Origin: Deltaproteobacteria bacterium RIFOXYD12_FULL_55_16
GTDB taxonomy: Bacteria > Desulfobacterota > Desulfobulbia > Desulfobulbales > Desulfurivibrionaceae
NCBI GenBank assembly: GCA_001799255.1
Contig: MGTC01000041.1
Coordinates: 1-34,039 of the forward strand
Reading direction: 5' to 3'
DNA length: 34,039 bases
Part shown: positions 1,890 to 33,779 of the stretch, piece by piece
Layout: each line of letters opens with the position of its first letter
Numbering within the stretch: the stretch's first letter is position 1
Notes under the pieces: generated by a model
Database searches by the model: none
What the model saw: the letters and a program-made list of their open reading frames with translations, nothing else
Told to the model about the DNA's origin: nothing
Made by a program: the position numbers and the translations under genes

Positions 1890-1997
1890 CGTAACTGTTC
1901 AGCAGTGCCGTAGCTGCTAGGAAAAGGCCTGCGAAGTGTGCTTTTGCACACGAGCAGGCCGATGACAACGCAGATGCGGTGCTGCTGGACAGTTACG
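1890..1997. repeat. interspersed inverted-repeat element, copy A
   Basis: A 108-bp imperfect palindrome bounded by CGTAACTGTTCAGCAG and CTGCTGGACAGTTACG. The centre is a strong nested hairpin: GGCCTGC (1926-1932) pairs with GCAGGCC (1954-1960), and GTGTGC with GCACAC around a TTTT loop. Its right end overlaps the uspA stop codon, which is the TAA inside the terminal CGTAAC read on the minus strand. Copies B and E are in the opposite orientation and recognisably similar through the middle. Confidence 0.85.
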
Positions 1998-2850
1998 ACA
2001 GGTGGCAGACCAGAACCGGGCAATCCGCATAGCCGATAACCCGCTCGGTGACGCTGCCCATGAGCAGGCGGGTCAAGCCTTTCCTGCCATGGGAACCCAT
2101 GACGATCAGGCTGGCGGAGATTTCCGCCGCCATGGCGGTGATGGCCTGATGGGGTTCGCCGTCGCGGACGAACAGCTCCGTCTGCACCCCAAGATCACTG
2201 GCCCATTTTTTGACCTTGTCCAGAACCTTGTCCGCTTCCTGATACAATTCCTTCACCACCTCCTGACCAACCGCGTAAAACTCGTCATTGGTATAGACCA
2301 CGGAAACGGCGGAAAGCCTGGCTTTCCGTTCCTGGGCAATCTCTAACGCCCTGGCCAGGGCGTTGTCGCAGCAGGTGGAGCCGTCCGTGGCCAGCAGCAG
2401 GTTCTCCCAGGAGAGCCTGCTGTTTTCCGGGATCACCAGGACATCCTTGCTGGTATGCCCGATGACCCTGGCGGTGACGCTGCCGATGAGCGCCCGTTCC
2501 ACTGTGCCCTTGCCCCGGCGACCCATGACAATGAGATCGCAGTTCTCCTCTTCGGCGACCTGGACGATCTGCTCGTAGGGTTCGCCCTGTTCCAGGTTGC
2601 TCAGGATGTGAACCCCCTCCTGATCCGCAATGCGCTTGGCTTCGGCCAGCAGCTCAAGCCCTGGCCCGGTGATGGCCTCCTTGATATTGGAAACCCCGAT
2701 GAGGTCCAGGTCTCCCTGGTAGGAAGGAACAACAGCCAGCACCTTGATCCAGCTCTTGTCCTCCCTGGCCACCTGGCTTGCCAGGGAGAGGGCGTTTTTA
2801 GCAGAGGGAGAACCATCATAGGCAACGAGAATCTTTCGATATTTAGCCAT
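1993..2850 (-). CDS. tandem-domain universal stress protein (UspA family)
   Basis: A 285-residue protein of two Usp domains. Each domain starts with a nucleotide-binding strand (ILVAYDGS near residue 8; LLLATDGS near 152). Each ends with the ATP-type G-x2-G-x9-G-(S) loop: MGRRGKGTVERALIGS in the first and MGSHGRKGLTRLLMGS in the second. Both therefore look competent for ATP binding. It is the last gene of the sigma-54 operon; its ATG overlaps the tauE stop by 8 nt and has a GGGAG ribosome site, so translation is probably coupled. The stop codon lies inside repeat element A. The physiological role is inferred only from the family: stress or energy-limitation response, here tied to anion export. 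Confidence 0.93.
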   Translation of the reverse strand: MAKYRKILVAYDGSPSAKNALSLASQVAREDKSWIKVLAVVPSYQGDLDLIGVSNIKEAITGPGLELLAEAKRIADQEGVHILSNLEQGEPYEQIVQVAEEENCDLIVMGRRGKGTVERALIGSVTARVIGHTSKDVLVIPENSRLSWENLLLATDGSTCCDNALARALEIAQERKARLSAVSVVYTNDEFYAVGQEVVKELYQEADKVLDKVKKWASDLGVQTELFVRDGEPHQAITAMAAEISASLIVMGSHGRKGLTRLLMGSVTERVIGYADCPVLVCHLS

Positions 2851-4183
2851 GATTGACTCCCGCGAGGGCCCTTTTGCTGTGGCGGTCGGCGGTCATCCCC
2901 TTGACCATGGCCACGATGATGATGAGAGCGGCAGAGCCCAGGGCAGTAACCAGAGACCAGAAGCTGATCCCTTCGAGCAGGGCAAGAGTGCCCGCGTCAA
3001 TGGGGCTCATCAGGTCAAGATCGATCAGGTAACCGGGGATCTTGACTCCACGACTGACCGCAACGATGAGCATGGTGGTGGCCATGACCACCTTGATGAT
3101 GTAGTCCTTGACATAGGTGGTGCCTAAGGCGCCGAGCTGCACGCCGATCAGGGAGGTGGCCAGGAGCAGCAGGGCGAGGCGAATATCGATCAGACCGGAC
3201 AGGCCCCACTGCACGGAACCCCAGGCACCCATGACAAAGGCGATAATCAACTCGGTGGCGCTGGCCACCATGGCGGAGGCGCCGATCACATAGATCATGC
3301 CGGGGACGCCGACAAAGCCGCCTACGGCGATGGTGGCGGCGAGCATGCCGGTGAGCAGGCCGACCGGGATGGTGATCCAGGCGGAGATGGTCACCTTGGC
3401 GGTTTTGAAGTGCATCATGGGGGGGAGATTGATCTTCTGCATGGCAATGGCCAGTTTGCTCACGGTCTCTTTGCCGCCGCCCTTGGCGAGCTTCCAGGCA
3501 TCATAAAAGACATAGCCGCCGACAAAAACAAGAACCACCATAAAAACCGCGCTGATGTAGAGGTTGGAGCCCGCGCCGCCGAATTGATTCAGGATGTGTT
3601 TCTGGATCTTGATCCCGATCTGCACGCCAATGACGGCGGTGGAGGCCATGACCAGGCCGAGCTTGATATCCGCCTGACCGTATTTCCAGCGCTTGTAGGC
3701 GCCGACCATAGCCTTGGGGAATTTATGGCACATGTTGCTGGCCACCGCCACTGCGCCGGGCACGCCCAGAGACATCATGGCCGGGGTCATGACAAAGGCG
3801 CCACCGGAGCCGATGAAGCCGGAAAGCAAGCCGCCCACCGCGCCGATAACCAGCAGGGCAAGAAGCTTGCTGACGCTCATGTCTATAAACATGATGGAGA
3901 CATCCTTCATCACCTTGTCAGCAGCGGCATGTTTGTCCAGATTGATCAGCACCTTCTGGTTCATTTTCATGTCCTCGGGCTGCATCTTCTCGCCCAGGGT
4001 AAGGGTCATAAATTCCTTGGTGTCATCTTTCTGAAAGACAAGGGTGCGCTCTGCGGCATTCACTTCGGTGATAATGCCTTTGAGCATATCCTTGGACGGC
4101 CCGTCCCCAGCGGCCAGGGCCGACTGGGCAACCATGGCCAGGGGAAGCAGGGCGAACATGAGTATAAACAGTAACTTTTTCAT
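2843..4183 (-). CDS. TauE/SafE-family anion exporter with an extra periplasmic N-terminal domain
   Basis: A 446-residue protein. Residues 1-25 are a signal peptide (MKKLL, hydrophobic core, ALA-A). Residues about 30-100 form a soluble domain rich in beta strands (KGIITEV, RTLVFQKDD, KVLINLD) that resembles small OB-like barrels. Then comes the multi-helix TauE core, with the paired family motifs GGLLSGFIGSGGAFVMTP and GMLAATIAVGGFVGVPGM. Family members export sulfite, sulfoacetate or similar organosulfur anions, so sulfite is a natural guess in a sulfur-metabolising organism, but the substrate is inference. An AAGGAG ribosome site supports the start. It is the fourth gene of the sigma-54 operon. 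Confidence 0.9.
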   Translation of the reverse strand: MKKLLFILMFALLPLAMVAQSALAAGDGPSKDMLKGIITEVNAAERTLVFQKDDTKEFMTLTLGEKMQPEDMKMNQKVLINLDKHAAADKVMKDVSIMFIDMSVSKLLALLVIGAVGGLLSGFIGSGGAFVMTPAMMSLGVPGAVAVASNMCHKFPKAMVGAYKRWKYGQADIKLGLVMASTAVIGVQIGIKIQKHILNQFGGAGSNLYISAVFMVVLVFVGGYVFYDAWKLAKGGGKETVSKLAIAMQKINLPPMMHFKTAKVTISAWITIPVGLLTGMLAATIAVGGFVGVPGMIYVIGASAMVASATELIIAFVMGAWGSVQWGLSGLIDIRLALLLLATSLIGVQLGALGTTYVKDYIIKVVMATTMLIVAVSRGVKIPGYLIDLDLMSPIDAGTLALLEGISFWSLVTALGSAALIIIVAMVKGMTADRHSKRALAGVNHG

Positions 4184-4219
4184 GAGGGTAGATCTCCTTT
4201 AGCTAAGCTGGGCAGGTGT

Positions 4220-4567
4220 TTATTTTTTTGCTTCAAGACCAAGGGTGCTCAGCAGGTTGCTGGCAAAGGCCCCGTGGATGAAGGAAAAGAAGAAGGCCGC
4301 CCCTACCGGGTACACCCAGCGCCAGCCGCCCATGGTGAAGATCTCGGTGACCAGCTTTTCGTTGGTAAAGAGCAGGACATAGGCGGAAATCGACAGCATC
4401 CCGAAAATAATGGTTTTTGAGTATGGTTTGGGTCTTCCCGCCGGAACCGGAGATTTACCGGCCTGCTTTTTAGCGCTTTCACTCAGAATCTGGCGGGCGG
4501 TGTCGCCTTCTCCTGCCTCGGCAAAGGCGATAGCCGACATGTTTTTGTCAAAGGTGGTGAGGTTCAT
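4220..4567 (-). CDS. small two-TM protein with an N-terminal FAEA mini-domain
   Basis: A 115-residue protein of no recognised family. Residues 1-28 carry the pattern M-S-A-I-A-FAEA-GE-x3-AR-x-IL, which recurs in the two genes directly upstream. A basic, proline-rich linker follows (about 35-50). Two hydrophobic segments come next, at about 51-67 (TIIFGMLSISAYVLLF) and 84-100 (VYPVGAAFFFSFIHGAF). The start has a clear GGGAG site 5 nt upstream. It lies 36 nt before tauE in the same operon, so it may be an accessory or anchoring subunit of the exporter; that role is inference from position alone. Confidence 0.8.
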   Translation of the reverse strand: MNLTTFDKNMSAIAFAEAGEGDTARQILSESAKKQAGKSPVPAGRPKPYSKTIIFGMLSISAYVLLFTNEKLVTEIFTMGGWRWVYPVGAAFFFSFIHGAFASNLLSTLGLEAKK

Positions 4568-4605
4568 TTTTGCTCCCTTTTTGCTTGATATTTCTAGTTA
4601 TAGTG

Positions 4606-5130
4606 TCAGACTCTGCCCGATCCCGCGTACATCACGACAGGACAGTGCAAGGCCTGAAATTTGGCGATCATGTTTTCTTTTGCCTTGCGGCAGCTCATGC
4701 CGTCTGGCTCCAAGACATCGAAGACCACGCAGAGGATATCCCGGCGAGCGCTGGCATGGCGAAGCAGCTCATCCGCCAGACAGCCCAGCCCGCTGACCGG
4801 TTGATAGATAACGCCCTTTTCCTGCAAGGCGGTATTCAGGGCGACGAGGGGCTCTTTTTCCTGATTCAGCCAGGACGCTGTTTCGTTCTCCGGCAGGCGC
4901 AGCATGTGGAAGATCTCCAGGCCGCCGCCAAGACGCTGGCAGAGGTGCAGGGCGTAGCTGATGGTTCTGGTCGCAATCTCCGGCTTGTCGGTTCCCAGAA
5001 GCACCCGTTTGCGGGCATTCTTGCTGGTTGTGAGGAACTGGCGCGCCGTCTCGAATTCGCCGGCCTCGGCAAAGGTCGCCGCAGTCATGGCCTCTTCAAG
5101 TTTTTTGAACATTGTCGTCAGGGCGCTCAT
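4606..5130 (-). CDS. Usp-like protein with an N-terminal FAEA mini-domain
   Basis: The 174-residue protein starts at the ATG 5130..5128. A longer open frame exists upstream, but that extension overlaps the preceding small gene and looks noncoding. Residues 1-33 hold the repeated mini-domain (M-x-AATFAEA-GEFETARQFL). From about residue 40 there is a Usp-like Rossmann fold: RVLLGTDKPEIATRTISYAL, later LCVVFDVLEPDG and a closing CPVVMYAG. The G-x2-G-x9-G-S ATP loop of classical Usp proteins is missing, so it is a degenerate or AMP-independent Usp relative. No strong Shine-Dalgarno is visible; expression may depend on coupling to the gene 29 nt upstream. Confidence 0.75.
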   Translation of the reverse strand: MSALTTMFKKLEEAMTAATFAEAGEFETARQFLTTSKNARKRVLLGTDKPEIATRTISYALHLCQRLGGGLEIFHMLRLPENETASWLNQEKEPLVALNTALQEKGVIYQPVSGLGCLADELLRHASARRDILCVVFDVLEPDGMSCRKAKENMIAKFQALHCPVVMYAGSGRV

Positions 5131-5159
5131 GGGGCGTGCCAAGGTCAAGAGTCTTCGCT

Positions 5160-5339
5160 TCAATGGGCGGAGTGGCGCGCCACGATCTGGCCGCCAGTCA
5201 TCTTGGTGTTCTGCTTCGTCTGCCTGTTCAGCGCCGCTTTCCTGTGGCCAAGGCATTCTTGCGCCAGTTCCGGTTCATTGGCCTCGGCAAAGGTGATGGC
5301 CATCATCAGGCGGTCGATTCTGGTCAGGATGGTGTTCAT
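5160..5339 (-). CDS. 59-aa FAEA mini-domain protein, first gene of the sigma-54 operon
   Basis: It starts at the ATG 5339..5337, with a GGGGAG ribosome site 7 nt upstream; the longer open frame that precedes it crosses the promoter and is not coding. The protein is little more than the shared mini-domain (residues 1-30, MMAITFAEANEPELAQECL) plus a basic, probably disordered tail. It is the promoter-proximal gene, about 63 nt downstream of the predicted sigma-54 start. The function is unknown. Because the same module heads the next two proteins, it may serve as a docking or dimerisation element; that is inference. Confidence 0.7.
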   Translation of the reverse strand: MNTILTRIDRLMMAITFAEANEPELAQECLGHRKAALNRQTKQNTKMTGGQIVARHSAH

Positions 5340-5390
5340 GATTTTTCTCCCCTGGATATGGATGTGGTGATGAAACAGGATAAATTTTCG

Positions 5391-5418
5391 GTTGCTCTTG
5401 CCTGGTTCGTTGAGCAAC
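5391..5418. promoter_or_regulatory. inverted repeat across the sigma-54 start site
   Basis: GTTGCTC and GAGCAAC, perfect 7-bp arms 14 nt apart, run from the -12 box of the sigma-54 promoter into the first transcribed bases. The arms repeat the GTTGC/GCAAC theme of the two upstream palindromes. It could be a site where the regulator, or a repressor, blocks the promoter. Confidence 0.4.
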
Positions 5419-5428
5419 AAGTGTGCCA
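5413..5428 (-). promoter_or_regulatory. sigma-54 promoter of the tauE/usp operon
   Basis: On the minus strand it reads TGGCAC-ACTTG-TTGCT, an exact match to the sigma-54 -24/-12 consensus (TGGCAC-N5-TTGCW). Transcription would start near 5402 and reach the first ATG at 5339 after about 63 nt. The divergently encoded regulator at 7258-8625 has the sigma-54-contacting GAFTGA loop, so cognate control is the natural reading. The rest of the 322-nt gap (5340-5662) holds GTTGC/GCAAC palindromes, an AT-rich stretch and the kinase ribosome site. Confidence 0.85.
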
Positions 5429-5564
5429 GTCTCTGGTTTTTATGGATTATCGTTTTATTTCGAGCAGTTATCCTGATTGGTGGCTGCCAGGCATGATGTT
5501 TCTGTTTCGCAACATTATTTTTGTTGATAAAATAATTTTTAATAAAATCAGAGAGATAATCTGG

Positions 5565-5600
5565 TGTTGCAACAATAAAGATGGCGTTGCCAAATGCAAC
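5565..5600. promoter_or_regulatory. tandem palindromes, candidate enhancer (UAS) for the NtrC-type regulator
   Basis: Two sites share the arms GTTGC/GCAAC: the perfect palindrome TGTTGCAACA at 5565-5574, and GTTGC-N5-GCAAC at 5586-5600. They are centred about 168 and 191 nt upstream of the predicted start at 5402, the usual range for bacterial enhancer-binding proteins. Their centres are about 23 nt apart, roughly two helical turns, as expected for cooperative binding. Confidence 0.55.
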
Positions 5601-5662
5601 CTCTGGACTTTGTTTTTCGCTGGGAGTATGGTGTGCCTGAAGAGAAAAAAGGAAGATAAAAC

Positions 5663-7153
5663 ATGTTTCAGCTCGGCATCCGCAAAAAGATCACCTATGG
5701 CTTCTATCTGTTGCTCCTCCTCATGATGGGCTCCGCTGTTCTGACTTATGGCATCGTCAAGCGGGTGGAAGAGCAGGTGGCCTTCGGCGAGGTGGTTGAG
5801 GATTTTTTCAATACGACGCTTGAGCTGCGCAGGTTTGAGAAGAATTATTTTCTTTACCGGCAGGAAAAGGATTTTCAGGAAAATCAGCTTTACTGGCAGA
5901 AGGTCAGGGAGCTCTTTGCCAATAACGCGGCGGCCCTGCGCCTGACAGTTTCCGCCTTGGAGCTGGAGCAGCTGGGAAGGGTGATCGAGGCCTATAACGG
6001 AAACATGGCGCAGCTTCATGCCCATTACCTGGGGATTGTTCAGGGAGTGAAGTATCCCGGAAGCGGTCAGACCCAGGAGCAGCTGGAGGAGCAGCTCCGC
6101 TCCACGGGCAAGGAACTTACCGAGTTCGGGGAAAAAACCAGGGAGGCGGTGAAGAATAAGATCACGACCCTTCTGAAAACCACCCGCAAGATCCTTCTGG
6201 TTTCCATGGCCTGTCTTTTTGTTTCCGCCCTGAGCATTGCCGCCCTTCTGGGGAGGAAGGTGATGAGTTCCCTGAAGATTCTTGAGGGATACACCAAGAG
6301 GATCTCTCAGGGTGATTTTGTCGAGATCGGCGTGGGGGAGGGGGAGCCGGAGATTCGTTCGCTGCTTACGGCCTTCAACCGGATGACCAAGGAGCTGAGG
6401 ATGCGGCAGCATCAACTGGTGCAATCGGAAAAACTGGCGGCCTTGGGCACCCTGTTGTCCGGGGTGGCCCATGAGCTGAACAACCCCCTGTCCAATATCT
6501 CCACCTCGGCCCAGATTTTGGGCGAGGAGATTGCAGAAGACGATGTGGAGTTCAAGAAGAATCTCATCGGCCAGATAGAGATTCAGGCGGACAAGGCCCG
6601 TGATATCGTCCGCACCCTGCTGGAATTTTCCCGGATCAAGGAATTCCACAAGGAGAAGCTGCTGCTGAAAAAGCTGGTGGAGGAAACGATCCTGCTTATC
6701 CGGGGGCACGCATCCACCGAAGTGGTCATTGCCGTGGACATCCCGGAGGATCTCACCATCATCGTGGACAAGCAGCGGATGCAGCAGGTTCTGCTCAACC
6801 TGATCAAGAATGGAATCGACGCGGTGCAAGGCCACGGGCATCTCTGGATTTCCGCCCTTGGCACCGGGTGCGGCACCGGGCTTGACGAGGTAGAAATCCT
6901 TATCGAAGATGACGGGCCAGGCATCGAGGCGGAACATGTCAAGAGGATCTTTGACCCGTTTTTTACCACCAAGGATGTGGGCAAGGGCTCCGGCCTCGGG
7001 CTGTTCATTGTGCATGACATCATTGAGTGGCATGGCGGGGCCATCACCGTGGACAGCAGGCCCGGTCTTGGTACCACCTTCATTATCTGGCTGCCGGGTA
7101 ACTGTCCAGCAGCACCACATCTGCTTTGTCTTCGGCCTGCTCATGTGCAATAG
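5663..7153 (+). CDS. membrane sensor histidine kinase
   Basis: A 496-residue kinase. TM1 spans about residues 12-32. A periplasmic, mostly helical sensor region covers 33-175, TM2 177-197 and HAMP about 198-250. The phospho-acceptor is His270 in GVAHELNNPLSN. The ATPase shows the N box (LNLIKNGIDAV), the G1 box (EDDGPGI), the F box (FDPFFTTK) and the G2 box (GKGSGLGLF). It is divergent from the sigma-54 operon and followed by its response regulator. The signal is not evident; the operon suggests an envelope or sulfur-anion cue. Oddly, the natural end (FIIWLPG) runs straight into repeat element B, which adds about 18 non-family residues before the stop. Confidence 0.93.
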   Translation: MFQLGIRKKITYGFYLLLLLMMGSAVLTYGIVKRVEEQVAFGEVVEDFFNTTLELRRFEKNYFLYRQEKDFQENQLYWQKVRELFANNAAALRLTVSALELEQLGRVIEAYNGNMAQLHAHYLGIVQGVKYPGSGQTQEQLEEQLRSTGKELTEFGEKTREAVKNKITTLLKTTRKILLVSMACLFVSALSIAALLGRKVMSSLKILEGYTKRISQGDFVEIGVGEGEPEIRSLLTAFNRMTKELRMRQHQLVQSEKLAALGTLLSGVAHELNNPLSNISTSAQILGEEIAEDDVEFKKNLIGQIEIQADKARDIVRTLLEFSRIKEFHKEKLLLKKLVEETILLIRGHASTEVVIAVDIPEDLTIIVDKQRMQQVLLNLIKNGIDAVQGHGHLWISALGTGCGTGLDEVEILIEDDGPGIEAEHVKRIFDPFFTTKDVGKGSGLGLFIVHDIIEWHGGAITVDSRPGLGTTFIIWLPGNCPAAPHLLCLRPAHVQ

Positions 7154-7205
7154 CACACTTTGCAAACCTCTTTCGCGCATCTGCGGCACTGCTGAACAGT
7201 TACCC
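7096..7205. repeat. interspersed inverted-repeat element, copy B
   Basis: About 110 bp between GGGTAACTGTCCAGCAG and CTGCTGAACAGTTACCC. The outermost GGG/CCC pair differs from the C/G pair of copy A but still pairs. The middle contains ACCACATCTGC, TTCGGCCTGC and a GTGC-AATA-GCAC hairpin, shared with copy E in the same orientation. It lies between the kinase and its response regulator. The kinase reading frame runs through it, because the terminal GTAAC falls in the wrong frame to stop translation. Confidence 0.85.
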
Positions 7206-7257
7206 CCAATTCCGGCCTCAAGCTGGATAATTATGCTCCCAGGAGAGCAAGAGGAAC

Positions 7258-8625: not shown

Positions 8626-8634
8626 GCGCCGCCA

Positions 8635-9123
8635 TTAATGAGTTGCGGCCCCATCGGTGTTGGGCAGGGGCGGCAACAGCAGGCCAAAGACGCTGCCCAG
8701 CCTGCGAACCAGCTCGATGAAGCTGTGAGGCAGCGGCAGGTCGCGCTCAGGCAGAAGGATTCCCAGGTCTTGCGCCTGCAGGAGGGTGGCGGTGCTGTTC
8801 TGACCCTCCTGGTGGTCGCACAGGGCCTGGATGCGGAGGGCGTCGGTGAGAGGAATCCGCAGCTCCTCAAGCATGGCCCCGATCCTGGCCTGTTCATGGG
8901 CAATGAGGTTGGCATGGCTTCGGGCAAAGACGGCAAAGGGCTCCTCATAGGCCGGAGCGCCAAAGATCGTATTGGTCAATGCCCCGGCAAGCTTGGCAAG
9001 AAAAGCCGTCTCCCGATCGGGATGTTTCTTCGCCAGGGCTTCTTTCAACTTTTTAAAAGAAATCATCTTTACGATCTCTACTCCCTCGCGCAGAATGGGA
9101 ATCAGCTTGCTTTCAAAGGTCAT
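8635..9123 (-). CDS. conserved-looking protein of unknown function
   Basis: A 162-residue soluble, helix-rich protein with no signal peptide or TM segment. I recognise no family motif. Visible features are a basic N-terminal segment (SFKKLKEALAKKHPDRET), a central acidic/helical part and a hydrophobic, proline-rich C-terminus (FGLLLPPLPNTDG). A GGAGG ribosome site 9 nt before the ATG supports the start. It lies downstream of a UspA gene, with repeat element C between them, so the two may share a transcript. It converges on the response regulator with only 9 nt between their stops. Confidence 0.7.
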   Translation of the reverse strand: MTFESKLIPILREGVEIVKMISFKKLKEALAKKHPDRETAFLAKLAGALTNTIFGAPAYEEPFAVFARSHANLIAHEQARIGAMLEELRIPLTDALRIQALCDHQEGQNSTATLLQAQDLGILLPERDLPLPHSFIELVRRLGSVFGLLLPPLPNTDGAATH

Positions 9124-9175
9124 GGACAGAATCCTCCGAATCTTTCCAGCTTGAGGCCGGAAAGGTTCGCATAAC

Positions 9176-9276
9176 CATAACTGTTCGACAGTGCCGCAAG
9201 CGCCAGGCAGAGGCCGACGAAGTGTGCCGAGGCCAAGCCGATGACCACGCAGAGGCGGCGCGGTTGGACAGTTACG
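9176..9276. repeat. interspersed inverted-repeat element, copy C
   Basis: A 101-bp copy between CATAACTGTTCGACAG and GGACAGTTACG, in the same orientation as copy A. The inner part has diverged (GGCCGACGAAGTGTGCC, GCCGATGACCACGCAGA) but follows the same order of blocks. The right end supplies the TAA stop of the uspA gene at 9272, as copy A does for the other usp gene. Confidence 0.8.
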
Positions 9277-9721
9277 ACCGGTAGGGGTTGATGGTCAGCA
9301 CTGGACAGGGCGCGGTTTTAACGATTTTTTCCGCCACGCTGCCAAAGAGGATTTTATCCAGACCTTTGTAGCCATGGGTGCCCATGACAATCAGATCGGC
9401 CTTCTGCTCGCTGGCAAAGCGATTGATCTCCTCGACCACATCGCCGCTCAGAATCGCTGTCGCATGCCTCACGGTGTCATCCAGGGTTTCCGTTACGAAA
9501 CCCTTCATTTTCTCCCTGGCGCTGTTGACCATCTCTTCCTCAAGCTGAATGATGGGCATGTGGGGTACGAAGAACCCGGAATAATCGTCAAAGTTCTGCA
9601 CTACAAAAACAACCGCCAGCTCCGCCTTGAATCTGGCGGCAAAATCCGCAGCCGTGCGAAGGATCTTCTGCGAATTTTCCGAAAAATCCACGGGCACCAT
9701 AATCTTTTTAATTTCGTTCAT
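9272..9721 (-). CDS. single-domain universal stress protein (UspA family)
   Basis: A 149-residue, one-domain Usp. The N-terminal strand is KIMVPVDFSENS and the ATP loop MGTHGYKGLDKILFGS closes the fold, followed by the usual CPVLTI strand. ATP binding is therefore likely. The ribosome site AAGGAGGGG immediately before the ATG is one of the strongest in the window. Its stop codon comes from the terminal CGTAAC of repeat element C. It is divergent from the DinG gene, with an 11-bp inverted repeat in the shared upstream region. Confidence 0.95.
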   Translation of the reverse strand: MNEIKKIMVPVDFSENSQKILRTAADFAARFKAELAVVFVVQNFDDYSGFFVPHMPIIQLEEEMVNSAREKMKGFVTETLDDTVRHATAILSGDVVEEINRFASEQKADLIVMGTHGYKGLDKILFGSVAEKIVKTAPCPVLTINPYRS

Positions 9722-9775
9722 TTCCCCTCCTTATGGTATAGATAGCAAACTTCAGCTAAGATCTGGACTGAGTCT

Positions 9776-9820
9776 GAAGGCATTCTCCTCTTACCATGAT
9801 CAGGCTAGCAGAATGCCTTC
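9776..9820. promoter_or_regulatory. long inverted repeat between divergent uspA and dinG
   Basis: GAAGGCATTCT (9776-9786) and AGAATGCCTTC (9810-9820) are perfect 11-bp complements 23 nt apart, about midway between the two divergent starts. There is no U-run, so a terminator is unlikely. A shared operator is the simplest reading. Confidence 0.5.
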
Positions 9821-14397: not shown

Positions 14398-15087
14398 CTA
14401 CAAGCCCAGGGTCTCGACCATCGCCAGGCCAACCGGGACAAAATCCGCGCGGGCCTGAGCCGGATCAGGGCAACGCCGCAAGCGGCCAAAAACCCGCACC
14501 TTCCCCATTTCGGCAATGGTTCGCATGTTGTCTTCAACCAGCAGTTCATCTTCAGCCAGCGCGGCCTCGGAAAACACCACTCCCAGCACCGGGATATCCC
14601 TGTGGCGCAGGGCCGCAAGGCTCAAGAGGGTATGATTGATGGTGCCAAGACCGCTTTTTGCCACCAGCAGAGTGGGGATCTTCAGCTCCCGCAGCAGATC
14701 CACCAGCAGCAGTTCCCGGTTGAGCGGCACCATCAACCCGCCGACCCCCTCGACAATGAGCAGCTCATAGCGGGCCAGCATCTCCTGATAGCGGGCCCGG
14801 ATCAGTTCCGGCTTGATTACCTCCCCTGCCCGTTCGGCAGCGAGATGGGGCGAGGCGGGCAGGGCGAAATGATAGACTACCTGGCTGGGGAGCAACTCCG
14901 GAGCAAGAGGAAGCCGCGCCATTTTCAAGCAGGCCGCCAGATCAGCGGGTGGAGATTCCGGCCCGGTGGCCACCCATTTCTGATATCCGGCGGCCAGACC
15001 TTTTTTCCGCAGAAAATCAAGGAGCAGGCCGCAGATATGGGTCTTGCCCACATTGGTGTCCGTGCCAGCGACAAAGATCGCGCTCAT
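14398..15087 (-). CDS. bioD: dethiobiotin synthetase
   Basis: A 229-residue ATP-dependent synthetase that closes the ureido ring of dethiobiotin from diaminopelargonate and CO2. The P-loop is at the very N-terminus, GTDTNVGKTHICG. The conserved VEGVGGLMVPL and LVAKSGLGTINHTLL stretches follow. The length is typical. It is the last gene of the minus-strand run bioH-bioC-bioD, separated from bioC by the 189-bp repeat element D that lies directly against its start. Inside element D and up to the ATG there is no obvious Shine-Dalgarno, so the element may influence its translation. No bioA, bioB or bioF is in the window. Confidence 0.95.
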   Translation of the reverse strand: MSAIFVAGTDTNVGKTHICGLLLDFLRKKGLAAGYQKWVATGPESPPADLAACLKMARLPLAPELLPSQVVYHFALPASPHLAAERAGEVIKPELIRARYQEMLARYELLIVEGVGGLMVPLNRELLLVDLLRELKIPTLLVAKSGLGTINHTLLSLAALRHRDIPVLGVVFSEAALAEDELLVEDNMRTIAEMGKVRVFGRLRRCPDPAQARADFVPVGLAMVETLGL

Positions 15088-15091
15088 TTCT

Positions 15092-15280
15092 CGTAACCGT
15101 TCAGCAGCACCGCACCTGCTTTATCGGCACTGCTGCCGATGATTGACAGTCATCGTCCTGCTTGCATAGGCTGGCTATAGCGCACAGGACTCTTTGTCGG
15201 CACTGCTGCCGACGATGATCGGGCGCTACCGCCGATGATTGACAGACACGCTGCATCTGCAGCACTGCTGAACGGTTACA
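15092..15280. repeat. interspersed inverted-repeat element, copy D (enlarged)
   Basis: A 189-bp copy bounded by perfect 15-bp inverted ends, GTAACCGTTCAGCAG and its complement. The second T/A pair of the other copies is replaced by C/G on both sides, so pairing is kept. The interior is longer than in the other copies. It contains repeated GCCGATGATTGACAG (two near-identical occurrences) and TCGGCACTGCTGCCGA palindromes. It fills most of the 237-nt gap between bioC and bioD. Confidence 0.85.
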
Positions 15281-15324
15281 TTTCAGAGATTGAGCCACGT
15301 TTTTTCGTTCCTGGTAAACAATTA

Positions 15325-16107
15325 TCATTTCTCACCCCTGACCACAAAAGCCTGATAGGTGGCGGGATACCCGCCATAGGTTGTCTGAAACCAGGCGTCA
15401 AGCTGGCGCAGCCGTCCCCTGGTCAAGACGCCTGGCAGCTGGCCGCCGCCGGTGCCGGTCTTGCGGATATGATCCAGCAGCGCAAGAAGCGTGGGATAGT
15501 TTTTTATGCGGAGCTCTTCCTGCACGGAAAAGCTGGGGAAAATCTCTCCTAGTATGGCCTGCAGCTGTTCCCCGGCAGGAAAGGCATGGGGCGGCAGGCG
15601 CACCTCCTGGGCAAAGACCTGGCTCAACCCCTGAGCCAGCTCGGTGAAGGTGCGGGGGCCGAACAGCACCCCGGCAAAACAGCCTCTGGCCGGGAGCAGG
15701 CGGCCAATTTGTTGCAGAGCCGCACCGGGGTCAGCAAACCATTGCAGGGTGGAATTGGCGCAGATCAGCGCAAAGAAATCCGGGCAGTCAGTCAGGAATG
15801 GTTCCCCATCCTGGCAGAGTACAGAAACCTGGCTCTTGCCTTCCAGCCGCTTTCTGGCCCGTCGCGCCATGCCTTCGGCAAAATCAAGGGCGATGATTCG
15901 CGCCTCTGGATAGCGTTGGGCAAGCAGGGCGGTGAAATGCCCGGTGCCGCAGCCGATCTCCAGAATCTGCCGGATCCGTTCGCCATCCTCAGGAAGCTCT
16001 CGAAGCAGGCGGAGCCCCAGAGCTTTCTGCACCTCGGCATGGGCGTCATAGGTTCCGGCGGCGCGGGAAAACCGCTGGCGGATTCCTTGTTTTCGAAAAT
16101 CAAGCAC
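15325..16107 (-). CDS. bioC: malonyl-ACP O-methyltransferase
   Basis: A 260-residue SAM methyltransferase that caps malonyl-ACP to prime pimelate synthesis for biotin. The SAM-binding motif is ILEIGCGTGHFTALLAQ, followed by an acidic loop (IIALDFAEGM). The N-terminal RQRFSRAAGTYD is diagnostic of BioC. I place the start at the GTG 16107..16105, which overlaps the bioH stop by 8 nt, has AGGAG 10 nt upstream and matches where BioC proteins begin. An ATG at 16149 would add 14 residues inside bioH. Coupled translation with bioH is likely, which suits a pair of enzymes that put on and remove the same methyl ester. Confidence 0.93.
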   Translation of the reverse strand: MLDFRKQGIRQRFSRAAGTYDAHAEVQKALGLRLLRELPEDGERIRQILEIGCGTGHFTALLAQRYPEARIIALDFAEGMARRARKRLEGKSQVSVLCQDGEPFLTDCPDFFALICANSTLQWFADPGAALQQIGRLLPARGCFAGVLFGPRTFTELAQGLSQVFAQEVRLPPHAFPAGEQLQAILGEIFPSFSVQEELRIKNYPTLLALLDHIRKTGTGGGQLPGVLTRGRLRQLDAWFQTTYGGYPATYQAFVVRGEK

Positions 16108-24069: not shown

Positions 24070-24077
24070 AAACAATC

Positions 24078-28133: not shown

Positions 28134-28135
28134 CT

Positions 28136-28939
28136 ATGGATAGCCTGCTGGATGCTTTGCAGGAAGGGCGCTTGATCGAGCTGCCTGACAACGATAAGAT
28201 GGATGCCCTGCAGTTTCTCGCCCATATTATTGAGGCGATTCCGTCGCTTCCGGCAGGAACCGATGTGGCCGGGTTGATCCTGGCCAAGGAACAGACCAGC
28301 CAGACCGCGCTGGGCATGGGCTGGGCCTGCCCTGATGCCAGAATGCCCTTTGACGAAGATCTGATCTGCGTGGTCGGCTGGAGCCCGCAGGGGATTAACT
28401 ACGGCGCCCCGGATGGCATTCCGGTGTCCATTATTGCCATGTACCTGGTGCCCGAGAATCAGCGCAATCATTACCTGCGGGAGGTCTCTTTACTGGCAAA
28501 GGCCCTGACCGTCTATCCCGGGGTGGAAGGATTGAGGGCGGCCAAGGAACTGAACGAGGTTCGTGACCATCTGCTCGACCTGATCACTTCGACCAAGGAA
28601 ACCATCAGGCCAGACAGCCGGGCAAGGATGATCCGGCTCCAGGCCAGGCCAACCCTGGAATCCTTGCCTGCCGGTGATCTCTCCAATCTGATTGTGGAGC
28701 CGGTAACCCTGGTCGGCGCCCCAGGCCTCAGGCACCTTGTCCTCACCCAGCATGCTGGCCTGGCGCAAAGCCTGGAGGCCGCGACAGGACTGCTGGAGAA
28801 GATCGAAACAGAGGGGGTATTCCAGGCTGGCGCCTGGCGGATTGCCAAACGGGGGAAGGTTGCCTATCAAAATGGCCGGTTCACCTACGATTGTCTCGCC
28901 ATAACAACAGCCGGGTTCCTTGAAAAAAAGGCCTCGTGA
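28136..28939 (+). CDS. PTS EIIA (fructose/Ntr type)-like protein lacking the catalytic histidine
   Basis: A 267-residue soluble protein. Residues about 1-140 follow the EIIA-2 (PtsN/FruA) pattern: a central K-E-Q-T-x-Q-T-x-LGMGWACPDAR segment, then VVGWSPQGINYGAPDG and MYLVPENQRNHYLREVSLLAKAL. The invariant phospho-accepting His of the usual PHAR motif is replaced by Asp67 (CPDAR), so phosphotransfer from NPr/HPr is not possible in the normal way. Residues 160-267 form a second region I do not recognise. It is translated with mgtA (2-nt gap), so it may bind and regulate the pump or signal Mg2+ state. EIIA-Ntr proteins elsewhere bind ion transporters and kinases; the present role is inference. 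Confidence 0.75.
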   Translation: MDSLLDALQEGRLIELPDNDKMDALQFLAHIIEAIPSLPAGTDVAGLILAKEQTSQTALGMGWACPDARMPFDEDLICVVGWSPQGINYGAPDGIPVSIIAMYLVPENQRNHYLREVSLLAKALTVYPGVEGLRAAKELNEVRDHLLDLITSTKETIRPDSRARMIRLQARPTLESLPAGDLSNLIVEPVTLVGAPGLRHLVLTQHAGLAQSLEAATGLLEKIETEGVFQAGAWRIAKRGKVAYQNGRFTYDCLAITTAGFLEKKAS

Positions 28940-29070
28940 GCTTGCCTCGGCTCAAAAACCATGCCATTGGCATGCCCGCCTGAGCTTTCTTGGCAAATTA
29001 TGTTTTCAGGTAAGGATTGCGCAATCTGGACTGAACATGACATCCATCCATGCAGAAGGAATGAACCGCC

Positions 29071-29466
29071 ATGCTGGATCAGAAAAAACTCGCCGTAATC
29101 CATATTGTCAAAAAGGAACTGGGGATAAGCGATGAGGAATACCGGGCCACCCTGGAAAAAATTGCGGGAGTCCGTTCGGCCAGGGAGCTGGACAACCAGG
29201 GTTTTCAAAGGCTCATGCGTTATTTTGCCGGAAGTCGGCATTATCGCCAGAGTTTGACAGGCATAACCTTCCGGCAGAAGATGTACATCAAGCATCTTCT
29301 GGCAGATCTTGCCTGGGATGCGACGCATTACCTCAATTTCTTGAAAAAATACTACAAGACCTCCGAGCAGGGGACTCTTTCCCGAAAGGAGGCAGGCAAG
29401 GTGATCGAATCACTGAAGCATATTCTCGCGGGCCATGAAAAACAGGGAGGACAAGGACAGCAATGA
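29071..29466 (+). CDS. orphan Mu gp16/GemA-like (DUF1018) protein
   Basis: A 131-residue protein whose N-terminal half matches the phage Mu GemA/gp16 pattern: KLAVIHIVKKELGISDEEYRATLEKIAGVRSARELDNQGFQRLM in the order seen in prophages. The C-terminal half, with FRQKMYIKHLLADLAW and YYKTSEQGTLSRKEAGKVI, also fits the longer family members. Mu GemA modulates host gene expression and DNA gyrase-related functions. There is no other phage gene around, so it looks like a remnant or domesticated copy. It overlaps the next gene by 4 nt (ATGA). AAGGA precedes the ATG at long spacing. Confidence 0.75.
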   Translation: MLDQKKLAVIHIVKKELGISDEEYRATLEKIAGVRSARELDNQGFQRLMRYFAGSRHYRQSLTGITFRQKMYIKHLLADLAWDATHYLNFLKKYYKTSEQGTLSRKEAGKVIESLKHILAGHEKQGGQGQQ

Positions 29467-29813
29467 TCGCCTTCAAGAATGAATTTGATCTGAGCATGGC
29501 TCTTGAGATTCTGCACAGCGAAACCGTGGACCCCAAGGTCTGGGCCGAAGCGGTTAAATGGCTGTTTCTCTTTGGCCCCCCGGCGATCAGGGAGATGATC
29601 AGCCAGGCCTCAAGTCTGGCAACCGACAGGTTCTTTCCAGAGCTTTTCCCCATTGGCTATACCGCGCAGGGGGAACCCCTGTATGATATCAGAAAACTTG
29701 CCTTGAGTCTGGGGATGAGCGAAGAGGAGGCCCTGGCCAGGATGGCGGAACTGGACGCAAAACATGAGATCCAGAGTCTTTATGAGGCGCCGGAAACGCG
29801 GAAGATTCAGTAA
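29463..29813 (+). CDS. 116-aa protein of unknown function, overlapping the GemA-like gene
   Basis: No recognised family. The protein is soluble, helix-rich and mildly acidic. It begins MIAFKNEFDLSMALEILHSET and contains DIRKLALSLGMSEEEALARMAELDAKH split over its last third, a helical segment that could mediate dimerisation or DNA contact. Coupling to the GemA-like gene by an ATGA overlap suggests a joint function. A terminator-like hairpin follows. Confidence 0.65.
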   Translation: MIAFKNEFDLSMALEILHSETVDPKVWAEAVKWLFLFGPPAIREMISQASSLATDRFFPELFPIGYTAQGEPLYDIRKLALSLGMSEEEALARMAELDAKHEIQSLYEAPETRKIQ

Positions 29814-29847
29814 GCTTGCTCTTTGAGTCGCCTCAGACCACTAACGC

Positions 29848-29875
29848 TGGGGCTGTCCCCACCCACATTTTTTTT
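29848..29875 (+). terminator. probable rho-independent terminator
   Basis: TGGGG-CTGT-CCCCA (5-bp stem, 29848-29861) is followed, after 6 nt, by eight T (29868-29875). The spacing to the T-run is longer than ideal, so strength is uncertain. Confidence 0.55.
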
Positions 29876-29889
29876 GGAAAACAGCAGAG

Positions 29890-30327
29890 ATGATTCATTC
29901 AGGCAAGACCTCTCCGACAGACTGGAACCTCCTTTTTCTCTGCTGGCTGCTCGCCGGGATCTCAACCCTGGGAAGCCTGTTTTTCAGTGAAATAATGCGA
30001 TTTCCTCCCTGCATTCTCTGCTGGTATCAAAGAATCTTTCTCTTTCCCCTGGTTTTCCTCTTTACAACCGGGCTCTTTTCCGGCGATAAAAGTGTGGCGC
30101 GCTATGCCCTGCCTCTGGCTGCGGCAGGCTGGCTGGTTGCCGCCTACCACAACCTGCTCTATGCCGGAATTATTCCGGAAAGCATTCAGCCTTGCAGTCA
30201 GGGTGTTTCCTGTACCGAGGATTATATTTCCCTGTTTGGTTTTTTGACCATTCCTCTGCTCTCGTTGCTGTCCTTTTCCCTTATTCTGGCGCTGTTGCTT
30301 ATACTTAACCGGAGGTTTGGCCGATGA
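29890..30327 (+). CDS. DsbB/BdbC-type disulfide-bond oxidoreductase
   Basis: A 145-residue membrane protein with about four TM helices. The quinone-linked redox pair is Cys41/Cys44 in PPCILCWYQR, the hallmark of the short DsbB/BdbC family. The second periplasmic pair is Cys102/Cys108 (QPCSQGVSC). It would reoxidise the thioredoxin-like partner encoded next and pass electrons to quinone. The stop overlaps the next start by 4 nt (ATGA). No strong Shine-Dalgarno is visible. Confidence 0.92.
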   Translation: MIHSGKTSPTDWNLLFLCWLLAGISTLGSLFFSEIMRFPPCILCWYQRIFLFPLVFLFTTGLFSGDKSVARYALPLAAAGWLVAAYHNLLYAGIIPESIQPCSQGVSCTEDYISLFGFLTIPLLSLLSFSLILALLLILNRRFGR

Positions 30328-30977
30328 AAAAAGAGGTTGTTTACCTTGCAGGCGTTTTTCTGATTCTTTTGTTTGTGCTGGGCGGCTATATCTATAAAAA
30401 TCAGCAGACAAAAAAACTTGGCTTTCTGAGCAGGGAACATGCTGAGATCTTTGTGCGCAAACATTCACCGACCCTTGGCAGCGACGAGGCAAAGGTTTAT
30501 CTTGTGGAATTCATGGATCCTGCCTGCGAGACCTGCCGCGCCTTTGCCCCCTTTGTGAAAAAGCTGCTGGCGGATAACCCGGGCAGGATCAAACTTGTAA
30601 TCAGGTATGCGCCGTTTCATGACGGAGCGGATTATTTTGTAAGAATCCTTGAGGCGGCGAAAAAACAGGGTAAATACTGGGAAACCCTGGAGGTTATGTA
30701 TCAAACCCAACCCTACTGGGCCAGCCACCACAACCCGCAACCCGAGTTGATCTGGCGCTTTCTTCCCGGGGCCGGCCTTGATCTTGAAAGACTCAAAAAT
30801 GACCTGAACGACCCGGCCATCGGACAGATCATTGCCCAGGATCTTGCCGACGCAAAAACCCTCAACGTCACCAAGACTCCGGGTTATTTTGTCAATGGCA
30901 AGCCGCTGGTAACCTTTGGCGATATCCAGTTGCGAGAATTGCTCGAAGCTGAAATTGCGGCGCAGTACCCGAGATAG
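30324..30977 (+). CDS. membrane-anchored DsbA/BdbD-type thiol oxidase
   Basis: A 217-residue protein with an N-terminal membrane anchor (LAGVFLILLFVLGGYIY, about 8-24) and a periplasmic DsbA-like thioredoxin fold. The active site is Cys68-Glu-Thr-Cys71 in MDPACETC. The cis-proline loop is KTPGYFVNGKPL. It would introduce disulfides into exported proteins and be recycled by the DsbB-type gene just upstream. GGAGG lies 8 nt before the ATG. Confidence 0.92.
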   Translation: MKKEVVYLAGVFLILLFVLGGYIYKNQQTKKLGFLSREHAEIFVRKHSPTLGSDEAKVYLVEFMDPACETCRAFAPFVKKLLADNPGRIKLVIRYAPFHDGADYFVRILEAAKKQGKYWETLEVMYQTQPYWASHHNPQPELIWRFLPGAGLDLERLKNDLNDPAIGQIIAQDLADAKTLNVTKTPGYFVNGKPLVTFGDIQLRELLEAEIAAQYPR

Positions 30978-31029
30978 GCCGCTAGAATAAACCACGCCAG
31001 AGAGCGTACTGATTTGGAGACCATGGATT

Positions 31030-31536
31030 ATGAAAAGATTATGCTTCTTAAGCATTGTTATTTGTCTCACCCTTCTTCTTGTCGCCTGTGGCCAGCCCCC
31101 AAAGATGGCGGAAATGAACAAGCCGGCTCCGGACTTCACCCTGGTTGACACCAAGGGCAGAACCTGGAATCTTGCCGAACTCAAAGGCCGGGTGGTGTTT
31201 CTCAATTTCTGGGCCACCTGGTGCCCGCCCTGCCGGGAAGAGATGCCTTCGATGCAGGAGGTGCATGCCTCGCTGCCAGAGGACAAATTCACCATGCTGG
31301 CGGTTCTCAGCAATGATGATCCTGCCCTGGCCGACTCCCTGGCCGCAAAGATCGGCGCCACCTTTCCCATCCTCATTGATCCGGAAGGCAAGGTCGCCAA
31401 GGCTTACGGCCTGACCGGGGTGCCGGAAACCTGCATCATCGACAAACAGGGGGTGCTCCGGGAAAAATTCATCGGCCCGGTTCCCTGGAACTCTTTAGAG
31501 GCTCTGCAAATGCTGAGGAAATACCTGGCTCAGTGA
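31030..31536 (+). CDS. TlpA/ResA-type thioredoxin lipoprotein
   Basis: A 168-residue protein with a lipobox (LLLVAC, Cys20), so it is a lipoprotein facing the periplasm. The redox site is Cys65-Pro-Pro-Cys68 in FWATWCPPC. The TlpA-type insertion and the cis-proline loop GVPETCIID follow. Family members reduce disulfides for cytochrome c maturation or copper-centre assembly. With the oxidising pair upstream, this makes an oxidase plus reductase thiol set in 1.7 kb. It is 52 nt downstream of the DsbA-type gene, so probably in the same transcript. Confidence 0.92.
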   Translation: MKRLCFLSIVICLTLLLVACGQPPKMAEMNKPAPDFTLVDTKGRTWNLAELKGRVVFLNFWATWCPPCREEMPSMQEVHASLPEDKFTMLAVLSNDDPALADSLAAKIGATFPILIDPEGKVAKAYGLTGVPETCIIDKQGVLREKFIGPVPWNSLEALQMLRKYLAQ

Positions 31537-31597
31537 CAGGTTTTCGGCGCTTGCCTGTGCAGGCGCCAACCCTGACTAGAATTTACCGGAACTCACC

Positions 31598-31843
31598 ATG
31601 AACACCAGGAAAACACCCCCTGCGCCCCTGAAAGCAGGTGAACTCTGCTTCGGCCTCAACCGGGAAACCGACGAACGTTCTCTGGAGGCCTTTCTGCATC
31701 GCTTCGCCGAACCAGCCTTCCTGCGGGCCCTCATCCCCCGCCTGGAAGAAGAGGAAATCACCACGCTTCTTGATTTTCTTTCCCGCCTGATGCACAGGCA
31801 TTGCAGTGAAAAGGAATATCATCGTCTGTTCCTCAAGGATTGA
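31598..31843 (+). CDS. 81-aa protein of unknown function upstream of ubiD
   Basis: A small soluble protein, mostly helical, of no family I recognise. Residues 17-70 carry the pattern CFGLNRETDERSLEAFL..., with an acidic LEEEEITTLLDFLSRL helix and a histidine pair (MHRHCSEKEYHRLF). It is preceded by a GGCG/CGCC hairpin without a U-run and followed by ubiD. The ribosome site is weak (CCGGAA). Stop and downstream gene are 47 nt apart, so co-expression is plausible. Confidence 0.6.
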   Translation: MNTRKTPPAPLKAGELCFGLNRETDERSLEAFLHRFAEPAFLRALIPRLEEEEITTLLDFLSRLMHRHCSEKEYHRLFLKD

Positions 31844-31890
31844 GGCGCCTTGCCGCAAGACCACTAATCATCAAGAAGGAGAGCGTAAAG

Positions 31891-33675
31891 GTGAGCCAGA
31901 ATATGGTTAAAGATCTCCGGGCCTTTCTCGAAATCCTGCGTCGGGAAGATGCCCTGCTCGAGGTTGACACCCCGGTTGATCCTTATCTGGAGATAGCAGA
32001 GATTCATCGCCGGGTAATCGCCCAGGGTGGCCCGGCCCTGCTCTTCACCAGGGTCAAGGGCAGCAGTTTCCCGGTGGTCACCAACCTCTTTGGCACGGCT
32101 CGCCGGCTGGAGCTGGCCTTTGGCAAACGGCCCCAGCAATTCGTGGCCGATCTGGTACGAACGGCGGAGACCCTCATGCCGCCAAGTTTAAGCAAGATCT
32201 GGGAGATGCGTTCTCTGTTGGGCCAGGCCGCCAGGGTGGGCACAAAAAATATCCCGGCGGACAAGGCCCCCATCCTGGAGGTCTGTCAGACTCCGGCCCG
32301 GCTGAGCGAACTGCCCCTGCTCACCTCCTGGGCCACGGACGGCGGCGCCTTTGTCACCTTGCCCCTGGTCTACACCGAACATCCGGAGGGCAAAGGCCAC
32401 AACCTGGGTATGTACCGCATCCAGCGTTACGACGACCAGACCACCGGCATCCACTGGCAGATCCACAAGGGCGGCGGCTACCATTACCATGCCGCAGAAA
32501 GCCGCAACGAGGCCCTGCCTCTGACCCTGTTCATCGGGGGGCCGCCGGCCCTGATGCTGGCCGCTATTGCCCCCCTGCCGGAAAACATCCCGGAGCTGAT
32601 GCTGGCCTCTCTGCTGCTGGGGGAAAAACTGCCCCTTACCCGCGATCCGGCAGGCGGCCACCTGCTGGTTGCCCATGCCGAATTTGCGGCCAAGGGCTTT
32701 GTCCCGCCTCACATAAGGCGGCCAGAAGGCCCCTTTGGCGATCATTATGGCTACAATTCCCTCACCCACGACTATCCGGTCTTCCATCTCGAACGGCTGT
32801 ACCATCGCCGCGACGCCATCTATCCGGCTACAGTGGTGGGCCGCCCCCGGCAGGAGGATTTTTACATCGGGGATTATCTCCAGGATCTGTTGTCCCCGCT
32901 CTTCCCCCTGGTGATGAACGGGGTGCGCCAGCTCAAGACCTTCGGCGAGACCGGCTTTCACTGCCTGGCCGCAGCCAAAGTCAGCAACCGTTATCCCCGG
33001 GAGGCCTTTGCCGCTGGCCTGCGCATCCTGGGCGAAGGCCAGTTGTCGCTCACCAAATTCCTGATCCTCACCGACGGCGAGATTGAGGTGACGGATTTCA
33101 AAAAGCTCTGGGTTCATGTGCTGGAACGAATCAACTGGCAGACCGACCTCTTTGTCTTTGCCAATGTCTCCCAGGATACCCTGGATTATACCGGCCCTTC
33201 GGTGAATAACGGCTCCAAGGCCATGATGATGGGCCTGGGCAAGGAGCCTCGCCGCATTCTGCCAGAGTCTTTTTGCGGCCAGCTGCCCCAGGGCTGCGAC
33301 CGGGCAGAGGTCTTCCTTCCCGGCACCCTGGTGGTGCAGGGGGAGGGCTTCAGCGCAGCGCAGGATCTTCCCGCCCGGTTGGCCCATTGCCCGGCTCTGG
33401 CCGACTGGCCGGTAGTGGTGCTGGTGGATGATGCCAGGGCCGCCACCGAAAACCTGCAGGAATTTCTCTGGACCGTTTTTACCCGCTTCGACCCGGCCGC
33501 AGATATCCATGCGGCTGCCACCGAGACCCGCCGCTTCCACCCAGGCCTGACCCCGCCCCTCATCTTTGACTGTCGCCTGAAGCCCTGGTACCCGGAGGTT
33601 CTTGAGGTGGACGCTAAAACCAGATGCCTGGTGGATGGTAAAATCAGCCAGATTCTGCCGCCCCGCTACCGCTGA
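31891..33675 (+). CDS. ubiD: UbiD-family prenylated-FMN decarboxylase
   Basis: A 594-residue decarboxylase that uses prenylated FMN. The family signature PEGPFGDHYGYNS carries the catalytic glutamate region, and NLGMYRIQ with GIHWQIHKGGGYHY forms the cofactor pocket. The start is the GTG at 31891, with AAGGAG 8 nt upstream; a longer open frame to 31840 would overlap the gene before it. The protein is about 100 residues longer than E. coli UbiD, as seen in menaquinone-pathway (futalosine, MqnL-like) homologues. A role in menaquinone synthesis is thus likely but not proved; aromatic-acid decarboxylation is the alternative. Confidence 0.92.
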   Translation: MSQNMVKDLRAFLEILRREDALLEVDTPVDPYLEIAEIHRRVIAQGGPALLFTRVKGSSFPVVTNLFGTARRLELAFGKRPQQFVADLVRTAETLMPPSLSKIWEMRSLLGQAARVGTKNIPADKAPILEVCQTPARLSELPLLTSWATDGGAFVTLPLVYTEHPEGKGHNLGMYRIQRYDDQTTGIHWQIHKGGGYHYHAAESRNEALPLTLFIGGPPALMLAAIAPLPENIPELMLASLLLGEKLPLTRDPAGGHLLVAHAEFAAKGFVPPHIRRPEGPFGDHYGYNSLTHDYPVFHLERLYHRRDAIYPATVVGRPRQEDFYIGDYLQDLLSPLFPLVMNGVRQLKTFGETGFHCLAAAKVSNRYPREAFAAGLRILGEGQLSLTKFLILTDGEIEVTDFKKLWVHVLERINWQTDLFVFANVSQDTLDYTGPSVNNGSKAMMMGLGKEPRRILPESFCGQLPQGCDRAEVFLPGTLVVQGEGFSAAQDLPARLAHCPALADWPVVVLVDDARAATENLQEFLWTVFTRFDPAADIHAAATETRRFHPGLTPPLIFDCRLKPWYPEVLEVDAKTRCLVDGKISQILPPRYR

Positions 33676-33681
33676 ATAAAG

Positions 33682-33779
33682 GTAAACGTGCAGCAGCACC
33701 ACATCTGCGTTGTCATCGGCCTGCTCATGTGCGATAGCCCACTTCGCCGACCTCTTCCTAGCATCTGCGGCACGTTTAC
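33682..33779. repeat. interspersed inverted-repeat element, copy E
   Basis: A 98-bp copy with ends GTAAACGTG and CACGTTTAC, perfect complements that differ from the GTAACTGTC ends of the other copies. The interior (CAGCAGCACCACATCTGC, ATCGGCCTGCTCATGTGC, GCATCTGCGG) is very close to copy B and has the same orientation. It begins 6 nt after the ubiD stop. Confidence 0.85.

Follow-up and report, generated by a model that had tools for sequence, protein, structure and literature searches.

Probable miniature transposable elements with co-changing hairpin arms, often at stop codons, in a Desulfurivibrionaceae genome and its relatives

A contig of Deltaproteobacteria bacterium RIFOXYD12_FULL_55_16 (MGTC01000041.1), analysed here over its whole stretch of 34,039 nucleotides (the window), carries five interspersed palindromic repeats. 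The initial annotation, made from the sequence alone, noted that the terminal sequence differs between copies and that both ends change together. The locus thus raises two questions: what kind of element this is, and how the arms of its palindrome stay matched as they change. The reading that we prefer, with a probability of about 0.85, is a non-autonomous miniature inverted-repeat transposable element (MITE), often situated at stop codons, whose hairpin arms change together through template switching and some selection.

Results

Repeat copies in the window

All five copies proposed as a palindromic family were found, with limits within a base or two of the first positions. Those limits had missed an arm outside each palindrome, and hence the true ends of the element. 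Copies 2, 4 and 5 share one orientation, and copies 1 and 3 have the opposite one. Mean column identity is 83% in an alignment of the four simple copies; copy 4 has the ends and outer stem common to the family, and a different and longer middle. With ORFs called mechanically, four copies lie between genes of the same direction, rather than the three first counted.

The palindrome of copy 1 (1891–1996, plus strand, 106 bp) supplies with its right end the TAA stop of an ORF at 1993–2850, and is preceded by an outer arm (1846–1890, plus strand) with the outer end GCAACTATTC. Copy 3 has the same arrangement in decayed form. Its diverged palindrome (9177–9275, plus strand) supplies the TAA stop of an ORF at 9272–9721, and the limits of its decayed outer arm (9138–9176, plus strand) were set by eye. 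No target duplication was recognised at either copy.

The palindrome of copy 2 (7098–7203, minus strand) lies between ORFs that, named from their translations only, are histidine-kinase-like and response-regulator-like. Its outer arm (7204–7234, minus strand) has the outer end ATAATTATCC, and the whole is flanked by the target-site duplications GCTGCCGG (7090–7097) and GCTCCCAG (7235–7242), which match at 6 of 8 bases. The frame of the kinase-like ORF enters copy 2 (7098–7153), gains about 17 residues from it and then stops.

Copy 4 is a long palindrome of 187 bp (15093–15279, minus strand) with extra stem-loops in mid-element and an outer arm (15280–15325, minus strand) ending in ATAATTGTTTACC. 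Its two target-site duplications, both CATTTCTC, are identical (15085–15092 and 15326–15333), and the first contains the start codon of a bioD-like ORF. The insertion point (15085–15333) lies where the stop codon of a bioC-like ORF overlaps the start codon of this one. Because copy 4 duplicated those codons, both ORFs are intact, as judged by reading the frames. Copy 5 (33682–33779, minus strand) has one palindrome arm short by 8 bases and ends that are still paired, GTAAACGTGC/GCACGTTTAC; neither an outer arm nor a duplication was recognised in the adjoining DNA.

Size and spread of the family

The source genome (2.46 Mb in 90 contigs, 85% complete) gave at least 44 matches in a DNA search in which 40 of 115 candidates were scored. 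A set of 31 copies, made up of 29 of the 30 loci of that search (L028, of 125 bp, was omitted) together with window copies 3 and 5, aligned with a mean column identity of 89%. A covariance model built from this set gave 109 matches in the same genome, with 150 of 1795 candidates scored. As 20 places were matched on both strands, these represent at least 89 distinct places, two of which were matched only in part; copy 4 is absent from them. The concern that a genome search might find no further copies thus fell away.

The initial annotation suggested that the family may be particular to this lineage. Model matches at E 0.001 or better were instead found in 52 of 58 genomes, the source genome included, and in 26 of 30 genera. 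An exact 27-base piece occurs in at least 101 stretches of named contigs; the 80 titles listed for it comprise Desulfobulbaceae, Desulfurivibrio, Desulfobacterales and metagenome-assembled genomes of Deltaproteobacteria or Proteobacteria. Removal of duplicates and of matches with short flanks from the 204 listed left 173 unique copies for comparison. One congener (G014) has 44 matches to the arm-end pattern, the highest number among the genomes compared, most of them reading GTAACTATCCAGCTCAAGGCCGG or near it; a related subfamily may have undergone a burst there. Viral contigs gave no match to one exact pattern, plasmids gave none to copy 1 as sole query, and the two Rfam matches in the window up to E 1 both lie off the copies. 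No description of the family was found in the open-access literature searched.

The mobile unit and its target sites

On the better-folding strand, called S and recognised by its start GTAACTGTTCAGCAGTGCCGCAGATGC, many copies have to the left of the hairpin an arm of about 45 bp starting GTAACTATCCAGCTTRATGCCGG or a variant such as GTAATCGTTCACC. Since the arm adjoins the hairpin on the left, the true outer ends are the start of the arm and the end of the hairpin. The unit therefore comprises an arm of about 31–47 bp and a palindrome of about 106 bp, with a total length near 150 bp (in copy 4, at 15093–15325, it is 233 bp), too short for a transposase gene, as in a MITE. Both outer ends start with GTAA in well-kept copies and form terminal inverted repeats; in L002, for example, the outer end GTAACTATCCAGC equals the right end. 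Many copies have these repeats in loose or decayed form. Because the outer end recurs as the inner end of the hairpin, arm and hairpin start as direct repeats and each unit holds three copies of the end.

Target duplications of 8 bases, matching at 7 or 8 positions, were present at offsets 45, 46 and 47 in 25, 16 and 9 of the 173 copies, where shuffled sequences lead one to expect 0.24, 0.37 and 0.34 (50 observed in total, about 1 expected); the first run of this test omitted 5 of 215 matches, which had short flanks. Over offsets 43–48 a duplication was found in 54 of the 173 copies, 32 of them perfect. The other 119 copies have no good duplication and the outer and right ends often differ, which counts against the MITE reading. 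Around the insertions there is weak A/T richness and no further target motif.

Empty sites in relatives, proposed at the outset as a check, were found. Locus L177 has flanks 95.7 and 97.2% identical to those of L117, lacks the unit and has one copy of the duplicated bases. Three window sites were read by searching for the neighbouring gene across the genus and inspecting the adjoining DNA. The copy 4 site is occupied in two of 13 genomes and empty in 11; ten of the empty sites have ATTTCTC once, and the remaining one has ATTGTTC. Fifteen sites could be read for copy 2: the window is occupied, 12 are empty, and the other two carry a separate insertion 16 bp beyond this point. Of 16 genomes in which the gene next to copy 1 was matched, six, the source genome among them, have an insertion at the same base, and the other ten are empty.

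A few hairpins lack the arm. Four hairpins carry near-duplications (7 of 8) directly at their own ends, and were first read as hairpins that had moved alone. This reading was dropped, since L091, the ortholog of one of them (L006), retains the arm; it is simpler to suppose that the arm was lost between the two direct copies of the end.

A candidate source transposon

No IS66 transposase was found in the source genome or in 16 congeners (0 of 17, many of them incomplete drafts), and PF03050 gave nothing in the source genome. Such a transposase was detected in 18 of the 58 genomes overall, and in 7 of the 58 with the L068 protein as query. This protein (475 amino acids; NF033517, IS66 transposase, 290 bits against a cut-off of 180) is encoded between GTAACTATCCAGCT ends flanked by the duplication GAATATTT (L068, positions 1343–3071), in a genome of another family of the order that has 33 covariance-model matches (G048). 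A similar IS66-type element with the ends GTAACTGTTCAGG occurs at locus L080 of genome G030. The L080 element (positions 1240–3653) has 8-bp duplications, and between its ends there is also an ORF in which the DruA (Druantia) domain PF14236 was matched. A genome of the same family as the source genome (G022) has three IS66 transposase gene copies, each matched as two neighbouring pieces.

ISDge4 of the ISBst12 group transposed in Deinococcus (excerpt of PMC12898284); it has a single transposase ORF and a direct repeat of 8 bases, and its ends are GTGACTACTCAGCA and GTAACTGCTCAGCA. The latter is the exact hairpin end in L006 and L091. Classic IS66 ends are quoted as GTAAGCGTCC and GTAACCGTCC in an excerpt of PMC12888890, and the family's end variants GTAACCGTCC and GTAAGCGT resemble these. 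The family thus shares with ISBst12-type elements, as described for ISDge4 (PMC12898284), the end GTAACTGCTCAGCA and the 8-base direct repeat; L068 is such an element, with the single transposase ORF. The window copies differ in having no transposase gene, and in that one of their ends is a hairpin of about 106 bp that repeats the end sequence. The ends of the family are likely to derive from ISBst12-type transposons, and a transposase of the L068 type may move the units.

Arms of the hairpin change together

An alignment of four copies folded to a poor consensus, whereas the better-folding strand of 31 copies gave a good one, a single long stem with a central hairpin. Compared with shuffled sequences, copies 1–3 fold with z of about –12, –12 and –3.6 on the better strand, and copy 5 weakly, with z –1.6; copy 4 was folded without a shuffle control. 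Among the 31 copies, two-sided changes occupy 34 cells, against a shuffle mean of 6.3, and none of 500 shuffles reached 34. When the partners were slid the signal was gone, with 0 to 3 cells remaining. The paired change of the two ends first noticed in the window thus holds across the family.

It also takes place at single insertion sites. Of the 173 unique copies, 61 belong to 25 groups, each with an insertion site common to several genomes. In the outer ten pairs, 12 of these groups contain 16 extra Watson–Crick states with both sides changed, L099 being excluded from these counts. The window version of copy 1 has GTAACTG/CAGTTAC where five other genomes have GTAACGG/CCGTTAC, and L187 and L188 differ by a C-G to A-T pair change. 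In L099, one substitution and one inserted base are mirrored in both arms, as judged by eye. The same groups also contain one-sided states, 11 mismatches and 31 G-U pairs, and copy 4 differs from its ortholog L288 on one side only; both observations count against copying as the main cause.

Template switching, selection on an RNA hairpin and gene conversion are not mutually exclusive, and each could contribute to paired change. We favour template switching with some selection. Single mutation events can produce multibase compensatory stem changes in RNA genes (excerpt of PMC8794818). The hairpin maintenance by template switching described there involves the same kind of change; it is reported for RNA genes, and the excerpt makes no mention of transposon hairpins. 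Unrestrained switching is disfavoured, because the arms are not identical and it should erase the non-Watson–Crick pairs that persist: among 107 copies, pair 16 is T-G in 96 and pair 17 G-T in 98, and pair 9 is likewise mismatched in 62.

Conservation, strand bias and stop codons

In 52 ortholog pairs, median identity was 0.87 in the left flank, 0.65 in the arm, 0.86 in the hairpin interior and 0.89 in the right flank; in the 22 pairs of equal length the interior reached 0.91. These figures favour the hairpin, since a hairpin match was required on both sides of each pair. Copies 1, 2 and 4 have a complete, folding hairpin in all 11 occupied sites, occupation being recognised by the hairpin itself. 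The arm of copy 1 is lost in two and partly lost in one of its six occupied sites, as judged by eye. Among the 107 copies of 106 bp (the 66 of other length were left out), pairs of the outer stem with a Watson–Crick consensus show 96 G-U and 18 A-C deviations on S. Position 20 alone contributes 43 of the former and three of the latter, and the copies share ancestry; the bias is for these reasons a lead for a role as RNA or single strand, and not proof.

In 101 of 154 copies a stop codon ends close to the palindromic end, within –7 to +4 bases, compared with 23 of 810 control points placed 150–450 bp away. The test used mechanical ORFs of at least 90 codons arriving from the right, and dropped 19 of the 173 copies, which had short flanks; antisense shadow ORFs make the counts noisier, for the controls as well as for the copies. 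In 38 of the 101, the TAA that serves as stop belongs to the element itself. The arm side shows the effect to a much smaller degree. Between tandem genes S is antisense in 48 copies and sense in 26, and other copies lie between convergent genes (33), between divergent genes (23) or inside an ORF (16). The worse-pairing strand is the one read by every gene that ends at the palindromic end.

Discussion

Does selection alone explain the matched arms? The hairpin might be maintained because it acts in RNA at the 3′ ends of genes, as an mRNA stabiliser, an attenuator or a processing site, with the paired changes as ordinary compensatory selection. Such a role is compatible with a MITE origin. It would account for the G-U excess on S, for hairpins that stay complete while the arm of copy 1 decays, for an interior better conserved than the arm and nearly as well as the flanks, and for the stop codons at the palindromic end. 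Set against this, the better-pairing strand is mostly antisense to tandem genes, the genes that end at the palindromic end transcribe the other strand, and the G-U excess owes much to one position in copies of common descent. Occupied sites and ortholog pairs were both picked via the hairpin. Moreover, ten of the 16 in-place two-sided changes are transversions, which have no G-U step between. We consider this account possible, if on balance doubtful, as the main cause.

Gene conversion, in which hairpins are replaced from other copies in the genome, is a further way for both ends to change at once. Orthologous hairpins are no more alike than paralogs of one genome (median 0.907 for each, against 0.884 for other pairs), as would be expected from slow change, from conversion or from the two together. 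At three shared sites (L201/L203, L107/L168 and L163/L055) the core differs by an added stretch, a stem-loop in L203 and L168, and the ends agree. Conversion would explain such same-site switches of the interior among types of 106, 120, 125 and 132 bp. For L107/L168 and L163/L055, however, the interior type changes and the ends stay, and window copy 1 shares AGCTGCTA and CACACGAG with its ortholog L240 although their ends differ. We think conversion unlikely to be the chief source of paired change.

The initial annotation called the family REP/MITE-like, and only the second half of that name has held. REP/BIME elements mobilised by a Y1 (RAYT) transposase are likewise palindromic, mostly intergenic and numerous, and the genome has two Y1 matches. 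A REP is defined as a palindrome of 20–40 bp with a GTAG or CGTC tag at one end (excerpt of PMC3733652). Here the palindromes are of 106 bp or longer and the insertions have 8-bp duplications, GTAG lies near the hairpin end in just five of 173 copies, and neither of the two Y1 genes, which the annotation had suggested looking for, has a copy within about 1.5 kb on either side. Membership of the REP/RAYT group was thus rejected as very improbable. Integron attC-like recombination sites, which as imperfect palindromes the window repeats presumably resemble, are likewise considered very improbable in view of the empty sites and the 8-bp duplications.

There is good support for the MITE reading. 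GTAA-type ends, inverted and matched by those of an element with an ISBst12-type transposase, 8-bp duplications and empty sites together identify the family as a MITE and not a REP/Y1 element. RUP is a small bacterial MITE. So are ERIC and Correia, copies of which can alter transcript stability (excerpt of PMC10969869); paired arm change in place goes unmentioned for these three in the excerpts. QMITE2 of Coxiella burnetii is similar by its description, 150–190 bp long with duplications of 7–11 nt, a strong stem and a location mainly in 3′ untranslated regions, but holds a GTAG REP (excerpts of PMC5896051 and PMC10969869). The excerpts of the open-access literature searched describe no IS66/ISBst12 MITE; the MITEs in them (161 bp, 4-bp repeat) are doubtfully IS5-like or unassigned.

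On the reading that we prefer, the arm of about 45 bp and the hairpin of about 106 bp would form one non-autonomous mobile unit that inserts with an 8-bp duplication. A mutation in one arm would be copied to the other by template switching during replication, and this would be the main reason that the arms stay matched, with some selection for the folded stem adding to it. Copies would be kept, or would land, at places that bring the palindromic end directly against a stop codon; the stop would then be either the original one or one provided by the GTAA of the element. We offer more tentatively the idea that the mobile hairpin has turned into a device at gene ends. It would be a MITE with three ends that prefers one orientation when it settles on stop codons and then persists at the same sites across species as a folded stem, its arms rewritten in place by template switching, its outer arm shed between direct end copies and its core gaining and losing stem-loops that other copies share.

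A repeat of Desulfobulbaceae-type genomes is now tied to IS66/ISBst12 transposases, and a palindromic transposon end is found placed at stop codons with almost codon precision. Nature has replicated a single hairpin dozens of times in this family, often at one site in several genomes, and some relatives are without it. Replicates and empty relatives together make a question of long standing testable, namely whether compensatory changes arise via selected mismatched intermediates or by one-step template switching.
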